NCBI GenBank assembly: GCA_012271015.1
Contig: JAAXHD010000189.1
Span: forward strand, 1-45,911
Length of the DNA: 45,911 nucleotides
Source of the DNA: Candidatus Poribacteria bacterium
Lineage (GTDB): Bacteria > Poribacteria > WGA-4E > WGA-3G
Reading direction: 5' to 3'
Below are positions 32,228 through 38,968 of this stretch, piece after piece. The notes under the pieces are model-generated. The model did not search any database. It was not told the DNA's origin and worked only from the letters and a program-made list of their open reading frames with translations. The position numbers and the translations under genes were made by a program. Position 1 is the first letter of the stretch; every line of letters begins with the position of its first letter.

Positions 32228-32794
32228 TTAGAAACGAATTTGAATGAGCGGCAAAGCGAAACCGACAGATTGCTGATTTGTCCACCTATTCAGCCCTTTA
32301 TCCAACGAGTCCTGTAGCGATCTCTTTCTATATCTTGCTATATCCGGACTGGTTTCGGACAGCCGTGTGAGAGTCTCCCCCACGGGTTCCTCACCCTCAG
32401 GCAGAAGAGGTGCTTCTGGCTCAGGCACACGCGGTGCTGACCGATCAACATGACGAGTATGCAACCAATCCCACACTCCAATAAACACAGACAATGAAAC
32501 AGTCCCGATGCCAACTATGCGATAGTCCCGCGGGGACAATTCAGGCGCAAATTGATTTTCTTGTAACATTCTTACGATACGCACTATTCCGTAGCTATGA
32601 ATAGCGGTAAAGGGTATGGAACTCAAAGTGATAATCTCAAACCGTCGCAAAGCACTTTCACTATATGCTTCTGGTTCCGTATGTCCTGTCTCCGACTCAG
32701 AAGATTCGGACTCAACTTGCGCTTTGGCATGCGGGATCACTAAAGCAAGAAAGAGTAAGTTAAACAAGAATAATCGAACACCCAACTTATACAT
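32228..32794 (-). CDS. Hypothetical exported/membrane protein
   Basis: A 188-residue protein of no recognised family. It has a signal peptide (about 1-25, ending PHAKA-Q), an acidic Ser/Glu-rich stretch (26-45), a hydrophobic segment near 55-72 and a clear one near 92-110 (VGIGTVSLSVFIGVWDWLH), then a Pro/Glu-rich loop and a polar tail ending FALPLIQIRF. The final aromatic residue suggests an outer-membrane-type C-terminal strand, but a single match is weak. GAGGG lies upstream of ATG 32794. It lies between lspA and fmt, perhaps in the same transcript. Confidence 0.72.
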   Translation of the reverse strand: MYKLGVRLFLFNLLFLALVIPHAKAQVESESSESETGHTEPEAYSESALRRFEIITLSSIPFTAIHSYGIVRIVRMLQENQFAPELSPRDYRIVGIGTVSLSVFIGVWDWLHTRHVDRSAPRVPEPEAPLLPEGEEPVGETLTRLSETSPDIARYRKRSLQDSLDKGLNRWTNQQSVGFALPLIQIRF

Positions 32795-32858: not shown

Positions 32859-33371
32859 TTAAGTTTCTTGGTTCTGATCGCGGTTTTGAAAGAGGTAAAC
32901 AATTAACATCCCTGCCCCAATACAGACAGAAATATCAGCGACGTTAAAGGTGGGCCAAAAGAGTCCTTTGTCGGCTATGCCGAATTGAAGGAAATCGACA
33001 ACCTCCCCCAAATAGAGACGATCAATGAAGTTTCCAACAGCACCACCAAGTAGAAAACCGAGAGCAATTTGCATCCAACGGCTCTCTCTGAATCGAAGGT
33101 AATAGGCAAAAATGAAGGCTAGAGCGACAACAGTAATGAGAATAAGTAAGACCCTGTGTCCAGCGAGTACGCCAAAAGCCGCTCCTGTATTCCTATCGTG
33201 CCGAAGGTTAAAAAAACCGGGAATAATCGGAATTACCTCTGTAACCTGAGCAATATGGTTCTGCACCAGCCATTTACTTCCCCAATCCACTATCAACACA
33301 GGAATCGCCACACCGATTAAAGGTAGCAGCGTCTGCCACGTATTTTTTTTAGGATTCTGCATCGTGGGCAT
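32859..33371 (-). CDS. lspA: Lipoprotein signal peptidase (signal peptidase II)
   Basis: A 170-residue inner-membrane aspartic protease that cleaves prolipoproteins. Four hydrophobic helices are visible. The catalytic aspartates are D117 in VGNFIDRL and D146 in FNVADISV; NTGAAFG is also conserved. The start at 33371 is favoured because GGGAGG lies upstream, and this overlaps the end of the IleRS-like gene by 23 bases; a longer frame reaches 33437. The window's lipoprotein (25432-26049) is a plausible substrate. Adjacency to an ileS-type gene is a widespread bacterial arrangement. Confidence 0.94.
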   Translation of the reverse strand: MPTMQNPKKNTWQTLLPLIGVAIPVLIVDWGSKWLVQNHIAQVTEVIPIIPGFFNLRHDRNTGAAFGVLAGHRVLLILITVVALAFIFAYYLRFRESRWMQIALGFLLGGAVGNFIDRLYLGEVVDFLQFGIADKGLFWPTFNVADISVCIGAGMLIVYLFQNRDQNQET

Positions 33372-36129
33372 TCTTAAGCACCTCCCATTCCGCTTTTGCA
33401 TCCATAGGAGACAAAGATGAAAAACTGCGTTTTTCATTATTTTCCTCCTGCGTTTCTATATCGGAACTCTGCAGCGCTTGCCCGATAGTAGGTGAGAGTC
33501 GGTGCCACTTCTTCTGAAAAATGCTATGGTTACCCGTTATACCCTCTGTAGAAATGAGAGGATAAAAATGTTCCACCAAAAAAGGAGTCAAGGGTGCCAA
33601 CCGTTGCAGGAGCACAGTCCCGATTTGCGACAAGGTGGCTTGCGCAACATGTAGCGTTGCAGCAGGACGCGATTCTATGGCACGGACATAAAAACGAAGA
33701 TCTTCTCCGCAGAAATCGGTTAACAGTGTCCACATTTCATGAAAATTTCCGTCTTGATAAGCCTGCTGTACATCCTGTAAAAGTTGAGAGGCAACAGTCA
33801 TCACCAACGAATCAATCGGGAGGATTTTATCGGTAGCAGTGGTACTTACCCCTTCTATTTGCTGTGCTTCCAGATCAGTAGGTGTCTGTGCCCCGGTGCC
33901 ACCGTCCTTACTTCTTTCTTTGTCGCTCTGTCTCTGATTTTTACGTTTCTGCTGAGATGCATCTTCGGATTCTGTTTTGTTTCTACTTTGAGAATCTTGC
34001 GCGAAATGGTTGAGACAATTACAGACACTCTCCAATAGTTCCTGCCATTGCTGATACTGAACGAGATAGTCCTCTGCGACCTTGTTAAGCCGCTTAGAGT
34101 TAACCTGCTCTGTTCCCACATTCGGTGTTATTGCAACCAAGCGTGCCACATCAGCTGGATATTTGTTAAGAAATGCATCCTCAATCTGTATTTCGCCATT
34201 AATCTGCGGCATTGTGTTAAGCTTTAGTTGCTTAAAAGGTTGACTTTCTTTAATTGGCCGGCTTCTGCTAAGCGCAGCGGAGATAACACTAATCTCGGCT
34301 AACCATTTCGTCCATTTTGAATTATCTGTATCAGTTTGCGGTACAAACATAACACTGGTATGTCCACCGAGCGGTTTTTTGAAATCAGAATTGTCAATGA
34401 TCTGAAGTAAATTGGCGAAATGGCTATCAATGAGGGTAGCTTCCTTGCGAAACTCACTTGAGTTACAGTTTAGACACCGTGTATCGACAGGTAAAAGTTC
34501 CTCAACGCTCAATCGGAACCAGAATTCAAACCCGCGTTGTATAGAATTCCGGATCGCATTGAGCGTATTTTTATCAGTAAGAGGTTCATCACACTGGTCG
34601 CAAAGGAGGATCGGAAGCGGCATCCCCCATTGGCGCTGTGCTGAAACCTGCAAATCTTCGAAATTGAGAACAGCGTTTTGTACATCGCGAATATCTTTAT
34701 GTTCCGTGTCGCCGTAATTATCCCAATATTCTTGGGCGTTGAGTAGCTGGGTAGTGGCATGGTTTTCGGAAATAGAGAACACCCATTTTGAACACGGACG
34801 AAACACTGCTACTTCACTACAGCGTGGACAGTGGGGCTCATACATTTCGCCTTTTTGTGTCTTGAGGAGATAACCACATTTTTCCAATTGTGGAACAATA
34901 AATTTCTCAGCATCAAAGAGATACAAACCACACAATTGTCCCGCTTCCTCGGTGAACCTTCCGGTCTCATCAAAAACAGGCATAGTATTCATGTTTAAGG
35001 CTTGGGCAATGTCGTAACTCGGCTGATGATGTGCAGGATTTAAGGGCATAACACCGGATTTTAAGGGAGATATTGATTTGTCGCGGACAGCATCTTTCAC
35101 CACGGTCTCAGGAATTAGTGTAATCTTTAAGTCTTTTGACGGAAAAAGTGGATGTGCCACAGCGCATTGCGCGAGTTCAGAGGCTTTGATTTTTTTGACA
35201 GGTTTCGGTTTGGATTGTCTCTTTGGAAGGTGTTTGGTAAAGTGTTTGAGTTGCGGTTCCGAAAAGAGTAGGTATTCATCTTGCCATTGGGTGAGCCAAT
35301 AGGTAGTATTATCAGTAATTCCAAGCTCAACTATTCCTGCTATTTCCCAAAGGTGCGGCATTTGGAGACAGAAGAAAACATTAATGCCAAATTCCTCTAA
35401 TCCGACATTGAAAGGAAACTTTACATAGCCATTTAAGGTGTGTGTCGGTGTTTGTACGAGGTTCGCTTCATGTATCGGAACAGTGCAACTGGGACACCAT
35501 GGACTCAACTGGGGCAAGTCATGTAGATAATTAGAATCACGGAGTCGACTGATAAGGGCGATAAGCCTTGCTTCCTGTCGGGATTCGAGGGTTTTCTGTG
35601 AGGTATCCCAATCCGCAAAGATGCCGAGTTGATGAAATTTCTGTTTCTGGACCTCTAATTCCTGTTTATGTCGTGCGCGACATCGCTTTCGGAGGACAGA
35701 TAATTTAATGGGTGTTTTAGACGTTGCAGTCTCAATGACGGATTCCTCAATCCAAAGGGGGTAGGTTTCCCAGGCGGGTACATAAGTGACATGATGCCCT
35801 TGCATCAACTCTGCTTTAAGGAAGATGTCCTGACAAACTTTTCTACAAAGGGTGCTAAGGGTGAGTGCATCGACTGCGGTGGGCCTCTCGCGAAGGACAT
35901 AGGTCTCTGTCTGAGAGGAATGGCGGGACTGTGTAGCGTTCGCCTTCACTGTGTTACGTTCCACAGTGTTAGATTTTTTGTTCGCGAGGGGGTATATATT
36001 GGTGTTTCCCCAAATTTCCAGAACGGCGTTTTCCCGCTCGCGGTCTGTCAACTGCGGTTTCTTTTCCAGTTTCGTAGACTTACCCCGTTTACGCGTCGTG
36101 CTTTTTGCAGTGGAATTTCGTTTTTTCAT
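33349..36129 (-). CDS. Full-length isoleucyl-tRNA synthetase paralogue lacking HIGH and KMSKS motifs
   Basis: A 926-residue protein collinear with class I IleRS. Preserved landmarks: QGHHVTYVPAWETYPLWIE (110-128), the editing-side SPWCPSCTVPIHEANL (209-224), the block DETGRFTEEAGQLCGLYLFDA (387-407), EPHCPRCSEVAVFRPCSKW (431-449), SAQRQWGMPLPI (496-507) and an anticodon-binding helical region (about 770-860). Catalytic parts are gone: DGPP and HIGH become ERPT and LSTL (82-94), GSDQH-RGWF is TDTDNSKWTKW (599-609), and KMSKS is TMPQI (639-643). A charged 60-residue insert lies at 710-770. It keeps an intact frame and precedes lspA as ileS does. It should not aminoacylate. A repurposed tRNA-binding role is inferred. 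Confidence 0.88.
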   Translation of the reverse strand: MKKRNSTAKSTTRKRGKSTKLEKKPQLTDRERENAVLEIWGNTNIYPLANKKSNTVERNTVKANATQSRHSSQTETYVLRERPTAVDALTLSTLCRKVCQDIFLKAELMQGHHVTYVPAWETYPLWIEESVIETATSKTPIKLSVLRKRCRARHKQELEVQKQKFHQLGIFADWDTSQKTLESRQEARLIALISRLRDSNYLHDLPQLSPWCPSCTVPIHEANLVQTPTHTLNGYVKFPFNVGLEEFGINVFFCLQMPHLWEIAGIVELGITDNTTYWLTQWQDEYLLFSEPQLKHFTKHLPKRQSKPKPVKKIKASELAQCAVAHPLFPSKDLKITLIPETVVKDAVRDKSISPLKSGVMPLNPAHHQPSYDIAQALNMNTMPVFDETGRFTEEAGQLCGLYLFDAEKFIVPQLEKCGYLLKTQKGEMYEPHCPRCSEVAVFRPCSKWVFSISENHATTQLLNAQEYWDNYGDTEHKDIRDVQNAVLNFEDLQVSAQRQWGMPLPILLCDQCDEPLTDKNTLNAIRNSIQRGFEFWFRLSVEELLPVDTRCLNCNSSEFRKEATLIDSHFANLLQIIDNSDFKKPLGGHTSVMFVPQTDTDNSKWTKWLAEISVISAALSRSRPIKESQPFKQLKLNTMPQINGEIQIEDAFLNKYPADVARLVAITPNVGTEQVNSKRLNKVAEDYLVQYQQWQELLESVCNCLNHFAQDSQSRNKTESEDASQQKRKNQRQSDKERSKDGGTGAQTPTDLEAQQIEGVSTTATDKILPIDSLVMTVASQLLQDVQQAYQDGNFHEMWTLLTDFCGEDLRFYVRAIESRPAATLHVAQATLSQIGTVLLQRLAPLTPFLVEHFYPLISTEGITGNHSIFQKKWHRLSPTIGQALQSSDIETQEENNEKRSFSSLSPMDAKAEWEVLKNAHDAES

Positions 36130-36446
36130 ATTTTTCGTCCATAGTTATCAGTCGTCAGTTAAGAGGCTTTCGTTTAGCAAGGGAAATTGAAGAAATACGC
36201 AGAAACACCCAAGCAAGGGGAAATTGAAGAAACGCCCCAGCAAAAACACCCCAAGCAAAAACACCCACACTTATAATACCATTTCTAAGAGATTATATTG
36301 CATTAAGACTCATATCAAAGGTTAACAAGACTGCACAGGCTAACGGTTTCCTATGCTACAATTGGGTTTTCTCGTTAAAATCCTATTGAAGAATTTTCAA
36401 TCAGAAACGGTATAACTATTAACTTGTTTGGCATATCCGCCATCTA
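36130..36446. other. Repeat-rich intergenic interval
   Basis: Holds a heptamer tract (36142-36166), AAATTGAAGAAA / CAAGCAAAAACACCC modules (36180-36268) and the family 3 element (36272-36417). No gene is seen. Confidence 0.6.
36272..36417. mobile_element. MITE-like element, family 3
   Basis: About 145 bp with inverted ends TATAATACCATTTCTAA and TCAGAAACGGTATAA. The interior includes GCACAGGCTAACGGTTTCCT (36335-36354), which recurs at 37769. A solo right end TCAGAAATGGTATAA lies at 42858. Confidence 0.55.
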
Positions 36447-36710
36447 TCACCAGAGTATACGCCTCAAAAATTGTAAGAGAATAATCAGCACAAAAGGTGA
36501 AATGTCGATACCAAGATTCCGAGTCATCGGTCCGAGCGCGTTCCGAATCGGACCTAAAACTGGATCTACGACGCGACTCGTCCACCAATAAAGTTGTCTA
36601 ACAACCGAGTTTTGTGTGCCAAAAACAAACCAAGAAAGTATCGCATTCGCTAAAACCAGTATTGTGAAAATTTCAAGCAGTTCACTGATGAACCAAGCGA
36701 GCATATCCAT
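36447..36710 (-). CDS. yggT: YggT family membrane protein
   Basis: An 87-residue protein with two hydrophobic segments (about 5-25 and 68-84) and the family core DPVLGPIRNALGP near 47-59 (usual form: TDPILxPIRxxIP). The family is tied to osmotic tolerance and envelope or division genes. It follows proC by 30 bases, and yggS lies further upstream: the yggS-proC-yggT order is common in bacteria. The start could be ATG 36710 or 36704. Confidence 0.88.
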   Translation of the reverse strand: MDMLAWFISELLEIFTILVLANAILSWFVFGTQNSVVRQLYWWTSRVVDPVLGPIRNALGPMTRNLGIDISPFVLIILLQFLRRILW

Positions 36711-36739: not shown

Positions 36740-37579
36740 TTAGGTATTACCGAGTTCTTTTGCTCGGGCCGTCGCAGCGAGGATCGCTTCTGTAAGCGTT
36801 GCTCGTAAACTGCCTTGTTCTAAAGCGTGCAGTCCAGCGGCGGTCGTTCCGCCCGGTGTGGTAACACGGTTCTTGAGCACAGCCGGATGTTCCTGCGTCT
36901 CAACCAACATCTTAGCGGCACCGAAGACCGTATGGGTGGCGAGTTTCTGGGCATCTGCCCGAGATAAACCGACATGAACACCAGCATCTGCTAACGCTTC
37001 GATGAAGAGTGCAACATAGGCGGGCCCACTCCCACTCACCCCTGTGACAGCATCGAGATGGTGTTCATCCATGACTAAAGAGGTGCCACAAGCGTTGAAA
37101 ATTTGTTGTGCTATTTTAAGATGTTCCTGATTCGCTGCGCTGCCAGCCGTTAGTACGGAGATTGCAGCACCTACCGAGGCTGAGATATTTGGCATCACCC
37201 GAACGACAGGTGGAGCGTTGTCAAAGTAGGATTCGAGCGTTGTGGTCGTAACACCGGCTGCAATGCTAATGAGCCATTGTGGTGATGATAAGGCGCGGGC
37301 GACCTGTGGCAAGACATGTGGGACTGCCGGAGGCGTGACAGCACAGAAAATAATTTCAGTATTTTCTACTAAGGCGGCAATATCATTTGCCCTGTTAGTC
37401 CCATTTTCATCGCAGAGCTGCTGGACGAGGGTGTTATCAAGGTCGGTAACCCAAATTTGTTTCGCAGGAAATACTGTGTCAGTGATACTTCGGACGATAA
37501 TGCCGCCCATCTTTCCAACGCCTATTACACCTAAGTTTTTAATTATTCCTTGCGGTTCGTTCAGGTGGGTTTCGCTCAT
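36740..37579 (-). CDS. proC: Pyrroline-5-carboxylate reductase
   Basis: A 279-residue NAD(P)H-dependent enzyme making proline from pyrroline-5-carboxylate. The Rossmann motif is GVIGVGKMGG (17-26). Further motifs are VRVMPNISASVGA, VTGVSGSGPAYV and the C-terminal RVTTPGGTTAAGLHALE. The length is typical. ATG 37579 has AAGG upstream. The yggS gene lies on the same strand but 615 bases away, with a mobile element in the gap. Confidence 0.96.
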   Translation of the reverse strand: MSETHLNEPQGIIKNLGVIGVGKMGGIIVRSITDTVFPAKQIWVTDLDNTLVQQLCDENGTNRANDIAALVENTEIIFCAVTPPAVPHVLPQVARALSSPQWLISIAAGVTTTTLESYFDNAPPVVRVMPNISASVGAAISVLTAGSAANQEHLKIAQQIFNACGTSLVMDEHHLDAVTGVSGSGPAYVALFIEALADAGVHVGLSRADAQKLATHTVFGAAKMLVETQEHPAVLKNRVTTPGGTTAAGLHALEQGSLRATLTEAILAATARAKELGNT

Positions 37580-38194: not shown

Positions 38195-38914
38195 TTAAAC
38201 CTCAAAGATGGCCCTGCCGATTCTAACGAGGTTCGCGCCTTCTTGAACGGCTACCTCAAAGTCGTTTGTCATTCCCATAGAGAGATACTTCATGGTAACT
38301 CCGGGGATTTTCTGTGCCTCTACTTTTTCAGCAAGCGATCTTAACAAAGCGAACGCGGGACGGTTTGCGTCCGGTGAAGGCGTTAACTGTCCCATTGTCA
38401 TCAACCCAACAATGTGCGTTGCCGAATATGCCTGTGCGTCTTCAATGAACTGAAGCAAATCACTGGCTGCCAATCCGTGTTTACTTGCCTCGCGAGTCGT
38501 ATTTACCTGAATTAAAACATCTGTTTGTTGTGAGCGTTGTTCAGATCGTCGCGCTATCTCTGCTAAAAGCCGCAAACTGTCAACTGAATGAATCAGTGAA
38601 AACATCTCTAATGCGGTTCTAACCTTATTCCTTTGCAAATGTCCAATAAGATGCCATTGGCATAGGTCATCATTGGGATCGCGACCCGCAGGATCTACAA
38701 ATGAATTGACTGAAGCATACTTCTGTTGCGCTTCCTGCACCCGGTTTTCACCAATGTCCGTAGCACCTGCGGCGAGAACCGTCTGAATCTCCGCCACTGA
38801 ACGCCCTTTCGTAACAGCAACGAGCGTTATTGAATCGAGCGTGCGTTCACTCCGCTCTGCAGCACTGGCAATACGTTCATTGATCCTGGAAAGATTATCG
38901 ACAATCGAGTTCAA
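38195..38914 (-). CDS. yggS: PLP homeostasis protein, YggS/PROSC family
   Basis: A 239-residue pyridoxal-phosphate-binding protein that buffers PLP and influences amino acid pools. PLP is bound by the Lys of LVAVTKGRS, and further motifs are GENRVQEAQQK, WHLIGHLQRNK, HSVDS and YLSMGMTNDFEVA. No ATG precedes the domain. TTG at 38914 is the best start, because it places the lysine at residue 36, its position in E. coli YggS, and GGA lies upstream. A longer frame begins with TTG 38944. The first 30 bases are A/T-rich and quasi-repetitive. Confidence 0.92.
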   Translation of the reverse strand: MNSIVDNLSRINERIASAAERSERTLDSITLVAVTKGRSVAEIQTVLAAGATDIGENRVQEAQQKYASVNSFVDPAGRDPNDDLCQWHLIGHLQRNKVRTALEMFSLIHSVDSLRLLAEIARRSEQRSQQTDVLIQVNTTREASKHGLAASDLLQFIEDAQAYSATHIVGLMTMGQLTPSPDANRPAFALLRSLAEKVEAQKIPGVTMKYLSMGMTNDFEVAVQEGANLVRIGRAIFEV

Positions 38915-38968
38915 TTTTTTAATTCCACAATTTTTCAATTCCAAAATTAGTTCGATTACAAGTGTATG

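Follow-up and report, generated by a model that had tools for sequence, protein, structure and literature searches.

A full-length isoleucyl-tRNA synthetase relative without charging and editing motifs at the ileS locus of Poribacteria

Results

The gene and its neighbourhood

We analysed a stretch of 45,911 nucleotides (contig JAAXHD010000189.1 of assembly GCA_012271015.1; hereafter the window) from a metagenome-assembled genome (MAG) of a member of Poribacteria, a sponge-associated phylum. Its minus strand carries an open reading frame, open throughout, that is related to isoleucyl-tRNA synthetase (IleRS) along most of its length and lies where ileS would be expected; we refer to this frame and its orthologues as pIleRS, for pseudo-IleRS. 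A reading of the same interval on the plus strand contained many stops and was rejected. A preliminary description of the window had already given the coordinates correctly, leaving the strand unstated.

On the sequence evidence, the homology of pIleRS to IleRS is far beyond chance. The protein matched the TIGR00392 (ileS) profile with 207.7 bits (E 3e-61), which falls short of the equivalog cut-off for a functional IleRS (621.4 bits). The Pfam domains tRNA-synt_1 and Anticodon_1 both scored above their cut-offs, and the best sequence match in the PDB was the IleRS of S. aureus (E 6e-39). A confident AlphaFold2 model (predicted local distance difference test, pLDDT, 80; predicted template modelling score, pTM, 0.79) had the IleRS1 structures 8c9f and 8c9e as its top Foldseek matches (E below 1e-38), and the modelled protein is thus of the IleRS fold. 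The TM-scores of about 0.5 and the root mean square deviation of about 11 imply that the relative placement of the domains differs from that in IleRS1 or is uncertain.

The genes yggT, proC and yggS upstream and lspA downstream (Table 1) are the usual neighbourhood of ileS, which in E. coli likewise immediately precedes lspA. The orthologues lie beside lspA, in the order yggS-proC-yggT-pIleRS-lspA-fmt as far as each contig extends. The order yggS-proC-yggT-pIleRS-lspA-orf188-fmt-PASTA was identical in the window's family (f1) and in families f3 and f4, and fewer of these neighbours were detectable in f5 and f7.

Table 1. Coordinates of pIleRS, its neighbouring genes and the remnants of IleRS motifs in the window
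Feature	Positions	Strand	Remarks
pIleRS gene	33349..36129	-	ATG 36129, stop 33349; 926 aa plus stop
Former HIGH motif, now T90-L-S-T93	35851..35862	-	alignment with E. coli
Zinc site 1, first knuckle WCPSC (C212, C215)	35485..35496	-	alignments
Former CP1 editing motif WTTTPWTLPAN, now QMPHLWEIAGI (residues 256-266)	35332..35364	-	alignment
Zinc site 1, second knuckle PHCPRC (C434, C437)	34819..34830	-	C434 invariant, C437 >=90% (59 sequences)
S(A)QRQWG - zinc-2 (C510, C513, C552, C555) - CP2 segment, residues 496-580	34390..34644	-
Former DVWFDSG, now D568-SHFANLL (W, D, G lost)	34405..34428	-	alignment
Former KMSKS loop region, largely deleted (residues 636-645)	34195..34224	-	alignment
Remnant anticodon-binding helical bundle (residues 661-878)	33496..34149	-	Pfam Anticodon_1
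lspA	32859..33437	-	downstream neighbour; frame overlaps pIleRS 3' end
yggT	36447..36710	-	upstream neighbour
proC	36740..37579	-	upstream neighbour
yggS	38195..38944	-	upstream neighbour

Residues lost and residues kept

The retention of individual residues was assessed in an alignment of 63 pIleRS with twelve real IleRS, in E. coli numbering. The HIGH residues H65, G67 and H68, which correspond to T90, S92 and T93 of the window protein, were retained in none of the 63, so that neither the class I signature HXGH nor the GXHH variant of type-2 IleRS (IleRS2) occurs at these positions. G56 and N61 of DGPPYANG and W534, D536 and G538 of DVWFDSG were likewise retained in 0/63; in the window protein DGPP has become ERPT, GSDQHRGWF is lost, and DVWFDSG aligns with IDSHFAN. 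The KMSKS loop was a gap in most members (61/63 at K602 and M603, 54/63 at S604). The threonine-rich motif and N250 of the editing domain (connective peptide 1, CP1) were practically eliminated, with retention of 0% at T241, 2% at T242, 0% at T243 and 0% at N250. D342 has become Ser in f1, whereas most members of f4 and f5 retain Asp. The CP1 site for post-transfer editing (T241-T243, N250, D342) is therefore missing from pIleRS. CP1 nevertheless persists as a domain, with W245 kept in 92% and H338 and Y343 in 97-98% of the members. The window protein also lacks the C-terminal zinc ribbon of IleRS1.

The body of the protein was far better preserved. Real IleRS share 68 invariant positions; pIleRS has lost 32 of them (retained in <=10%) and kept 17 (>=90%). 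Retention of 92-100% was found at P57, W95, E103, the zinc ligands C188 and C191, W245, H338, Y343, R416, W421, S465, R468, W470, F535, W569, D623 and R626. The eight cysteines of the two zinc sites were invariant or nearly so across 59 pIleRS sequences (C212 invariant in the 59 and present in all of the 63; C215 in >=90% and 95%, respectively), and they are kept between families that share 21-35% identity. Other positions became newly fixed in pIleRS, among them F171, R184, E245, C400, R527, R532, A572, L574 and L575; within the CP2/zinc-2 segment (CP2, connective peptide 2), the derived Arg527 is invariant and Arg532 nearly so. The anticodon bundle carries a lineage-specific variable insert at residues 710-768. 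For residues 678-768 (positions 33826-34098), the prediction is a very long helix (678-735) and, after it, an insert that is disordered and varies strongly; this stretch was seen in f1 and not in the other aligned families.

Loss of the catalytic and editing motifs together with retention of the structural positions indicates that the chemistry has gone and the body remains. By every sequence criterion, pIleRS is without both the charging (ATP/adenylate) site and the CP1 editing site, and formation of an aminoacyl-adenylate would not be expected, because all the motifs that it requires are absent. The preliminary description had placed a catalytically dead IleRS here, next to lspA. The gene does adjoin lspA and its catalytic elements are indeed replaced, with the correction that the replacement of HIGH by LSTL given there was one residue out of register. 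The loss of the editing threonines had escaped it.

Distribution and selection

Orthologues of pIleRS were found in 74 of the 80 Poribacteria genomes examined, in seven or more families and also in a second class. They occurred in 36/36 genomes of the window's genus (g1), in 18/18 genomes of other genera of f1, in 8/9 of f4, 3/3 of f3, 4/6 of f5 and 2/2 of f6, as well as in f7 and, as a fragment, in f8; in the two f5 genomes without pIleRS, lspA was not found either. The second class is represented by one genome (G061), where a contig-edge fragment was found (L202:1-1410), which precedes lspA-lgt-def-fmt. Another candidate IleRS1 of the same genome (C251) was rejected as it carries GKKMSKREGN and looks ValRS-like. 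A search of the genome collection matched only records titled Candidatus or uncultured Poribacteria, with patterns specific to f1 and f4, so it permits no inference of absence outside the phylum. In three genomes (G036, G039 and G038; loci L130, L131 and L132) the gene was cleanly absent, with about 200-600 bases left between yggT and lspA. All three carry the second of two types of IleRS2 described below (type B), and there was no clean loss in type-A genomes.

pIleRS is under strong purifying selection, as the preliminary description had supposed. None of the 54 f1 members contained a stop or a frameshift, and the ratio of nonsynonymous to synonymous substitution (dN/dS), calculated by the Nei-Gojobori method (NG86) among g1 orthologues, had a median of 0.176 and a maximum of 0.32 (97 pairs, dS 0.1-0.8), compared with 0.057 for IleRS2, 0.109 for lspA and 0.164 for yggS. 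The lowest value in pIleRS, 0.022, was found at residues 501-563, which follow SRQR and comprise zinc-2 and CP2. The first Rossmann half (0.086), the linker (0.077), the second Rossmann half (0.074) and CP1 (0.139) were intermediate, and the anticodon part was least constrained (0.28-0.52, with about 0.3 in the bundle and 0.4-0.5 in the insert and tails). IleRS2 of g1 showed the opposite order, with 0.02 in the active-site halves, 0.098 in CP2/zinc-2 and 0.063 in the anticodon domain. These opposite maps imply that selection on pIleRS has moved from the active site and the anticodon domain to the CP2/zinc-2 side. CP2/zinc-2 was also the lowest region in an independent genus, g20 (0.057), and was zero in one f5 pair; in f4 the linker was below it.

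The acting synthetase

A search for a second canonical IleRS, which the preliminary description had suggested, found a separate IleRS above the TIGR00392 cut-off in 35/35 sister genomes, including the single-contig genomes G005, G010, G022 and G029, and none in the window's own MAG. The sister-genome enzymes are IleRS2 of about 1050 aa that score >900 bits against the MupA and MupB models. In type A, which occurs in most families, GVHH replaces HIGH and KMSKS is intact; type B (NPMGVHH, MHKS/MHKSWGN) occurs in f2 and f4 (loci L094, L095, L097, L098 and L099). Translation appears to be served by a separate, horizontally spread type-2 enzyme. Because f2 and f4 carry a different IleRS2, this essential synthetase seems, from the sequences, to have been replaced twice in Poribacteria. 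In characterised IleRS2, GXHH confers mupirocin hyper-resistance with little loss of activity (PMC10485003), and the motif suggests that the Poribacteria enzymes may be mupirocin-resistant as well. One genome, G075, holds two intact IleRS2 copies (C84:54601-57114 and C74:15477-17990). Upstream of IleRS2 in G010 there is a 157-aa frame (L106:5412-5885) with a near-perfect repeat of about 60 aa, which is probably non-coding repeated DNA.

Descent

In a maximum-likelihood tree, pIleRS formed one clade (support by the Shimodaira-Hasegawa-like approximate likelihood-ratio test, SH-aLRT, 100, from a short search without bootstrap) beside IleRS1 (joint branch 99) and apart from both Poribacteria IleRS2 types and from ValRS. 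A profile of 59 pIleRS relatives matched IleRS1 structures with 397 and 374 bits, compared with 237 for IleRS2. The G061 fragment, when added, fell at the base of pIleRS (SH-aLRT 91), a provisional placement given its long branch and coverage of 48% of the columns. This fragment lacks the second half of the active site and the motifs KMSKS, DVWFDSG and GSDQHRGWF, and its C-terminal zinc ribbon of IleRS1 (CERCW...CFSC), lost in all other pIleRS, is intact. It is an apparent evolutionary intermediate, and its dead centre beside an intact ribbon implies that catalysis was lost first. IleRS2 is present in both sampled classes of the phylum. The probable order of events was takeover by IleRS2, then loss of catalysis in IleRS1, and later erosion of its C-terminal tRNA-recognition part.

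pIleRS is the phylum's vertically inherited native IleRS1, demoted in place at the ancestral yggT-ileS-lspA locus. The preliminary description had called it a paralogue; its relation to IleRS stands, and synteny and the tree speak against a separate duplicate that had moved there.

Discussion

We think it fairly probable that the native IleRS1 was kept at its own locus with both of its sites dead, that IleRS2 is the acting enzyme, and that pIleRS is now a binding protein. It would work by binding instead of catalysis. Judging from where constraint is strongest and where new arginines have become fixed, the working surface would comprise the CP2/zinc-2 segment together with the linker and the Rossmann remnants next to it, at residues about 140-230 and 496-580. 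This surface acquired the arginines R184, R527 and R532, which are invariant or nearly so. The likeliest ligand would be RNA, perhaps the acceptor arm of a tRNA, or the complex of the acting synthetase with its tRNA, and pIleRS may then assist or regulate isoleucylation or translation. A tRNA-binding regulator and a scaffold had been among the earlier proposals, and either may be right. A regulator that reads the anticodon of tRNA-Ile is less likely in this genus, because the anticodon part is the least constrained, CP2/zinc-2 being the most, and the zinc ribbon has gone. A fuller history, in which a GXHH IleRS2 displaced IleRS1 in the ancestor of Poribacteria and the latter was recruited through CP2/zinc-2 to sense or handle tRNA-Ile or to assist IleRS2, is put forward tentatively, at somewhat less than even chances; by analogy with characterised enzymes, the displacing IleRS2 would have been antibiotic-proof.

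Several points weigh against a conserved binding protein beside an acting IleRS2. Binding itself, like the ligand and the surface involved, is inferred. The shift in net charge of the domains is mild (about +5 in the first Rossmann half, compared with +1.6 in IleRS1), and the acting synthetase is under tighter constraint than pIleRS (0.057 vs 0.176). The clean losses in G036, G039 and G038 imply that the gene is dispensable in some lineages. In the window's own MAG, which is 83.6% complete, an IleRS2 query found nothing, the other matches to the ileS profile were ValRS (C180), LeuRS (C40) and MetRS (C159), and a search through the gene that neighbours IleRS2 found that neighbour as a fragment only. 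A full IleRS was not found in G046 and G048 either. Since 35 sister genomes carry a separate IleRS, these absences are likely, though not proven, to be gaps in the MAGs.

It is possible, although we consider it unlikely, that pIleRS serves the acting IleRS2 as an accessory subunit or regulates it allosterically. Catalytically dead paralogues do activate their partners in the AdoMetDC and deoxyhypusine synthase of trypanosomatids (PMC5201418, PMC3663545), which provides a precedent. A weak hint of such a link is that the three clean losses all occurred where type B has replaced type A; another comes from the dN/dS of pIleRS relative to its neighbours, which was 1.27 in g1, a type-A genus (103 pairs), and reached 1.81 in f4, where the enzyme is type B (7 pairs). 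However, this contrast is based on few pairs, and the losses may reflect one replacement event, in which case they are not independent evidence. Eight of nine f4 genomes keep pIleRS beside a type-B enzyme, so a type-A partner is not obligatory. Moreover, IleRS enzymes are usually monomeric.

The remaining possibilities concern proteins that still do chemistry, or no protein function. The IleRS homologue SbzA, from an antibiotic pathway of Streptomyces, that for SB-203208, takes its Ile-tRNA from a second IleRS, and pIleRS could by analogy be an aminoacyl transferase of this kind. Like pIleRS, it is an IleRS-derived protein beside a working IleRS. HYGH and AMSKA are, however, intact in SbzA, which charges tRNA weakly and lies in a biosynthetic cluster (PMC6331615, PMC12945691), whereas pIleRS lacks both motifs and has housekeeping genes as neighbours, which makes a transferase very unlikely. 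An editing-only protein, a trans-acting deacylase derived from CP1, had also been proposed earlier. The CP1 domain is present, with H338 and Y343 kept and, in most members of f4 and f5, D342 as well. The idea is nevertheless contradicted, since N250 and the threonine-rich motif have disappeared from practically all 63 members, D342 is Ser in the window's family, and the most constrained part of pIleRS is not CP1; we reject it, with slightly less credit than the transferase. Even less credible is a synthetase with an unconventional active site. The whole fold and the zinc sites are kept and the gene's own MAG yielded no other IleRS, yet HIGH, G56, W534 and D536 remain in 0/63 and the KMSKS loop has been deleted. 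All sister genomes hold a separate IleRS2, and the swap of HXGH to GXHH alone abolishes product formation in IleRS1 (PMC10485003). Least probable of all, a pseudogene in decay or a spacer maintained just for lspA expression is rejected, for although the gene evolves faster than IleRS2, overlaps lspA and was lost in three genomes, its dN/dS is 0.02-0.18 over most of the protein, its zinc cysteines are conserved between distant families, and lspA persists without it in G036, G038 and G039; for g1 decay is refuted, with open frames in 54/54 f1 genomes and no dN/dS near 1.

Compared with IleRS1 (E. coli IleS, S. aureus 1QU2, P. megaterium 8C9E), pIleRS shares the fold, the lspA-adjoining locus, a sister position in the tree and the residues W95, E103, R468, W470, W569, D623 and R626. 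It differs in the absence of HIGH, KMSKS, G56, W534, D536 and the threonine-rich CP1 motif and, except in the G061 fragment, of the C-terminal zinc ribbon. The GXHH IleRS2 (PMC10485003) occurs in the same genomes, but it is a separate gene in a separate clade and its catalytic motifs are present. The nearest known kind is LeuRS-I of Sulfolobaceae, which has a disrupted CP1 editing domain and does not charge tRNA, with a functional synthetase in the same genome; it still makes leucyl-adenylate and binds tRNA-Leu (PMC9437257). pIleRS resembles it in coexisting with a separate synthetase for the same amino acid (in 35/35 sisters; none in its own MAG). Unlike LeuRS-I, it lacks the adenylate motifs, is derived from IleRS1 and remains at the ancestral locus.

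Dead class I synthetases are already known for other amino acids, and what appears new here is an IleRS1 that is dead at both sites and has stayed in its place across a phylum. Our search of the papers available to us found no report of a full-length, doubly dead IleRS conserved phylum-wide at its ancestral locus, and nothing on topic for dead IleRS or Poribacteria synthetases. pIleRS gives an ordered series of events and a test of what use the body of a synthetase has without charging or editing. As it is easily annotated as ileS by homology, predictions of gene content and of resistance in Poribacteria could be wrong.

Other features of the locus

A 188-aa protein (orf188, 32228-32794) follows lspA in nearly all families with the pIleRS locus and has a dN/dS of about 0.18. 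Between yggT and pIleRS there is a short tandem repeat (36230-36266) made of 2.5 copies of a 15-base unit.

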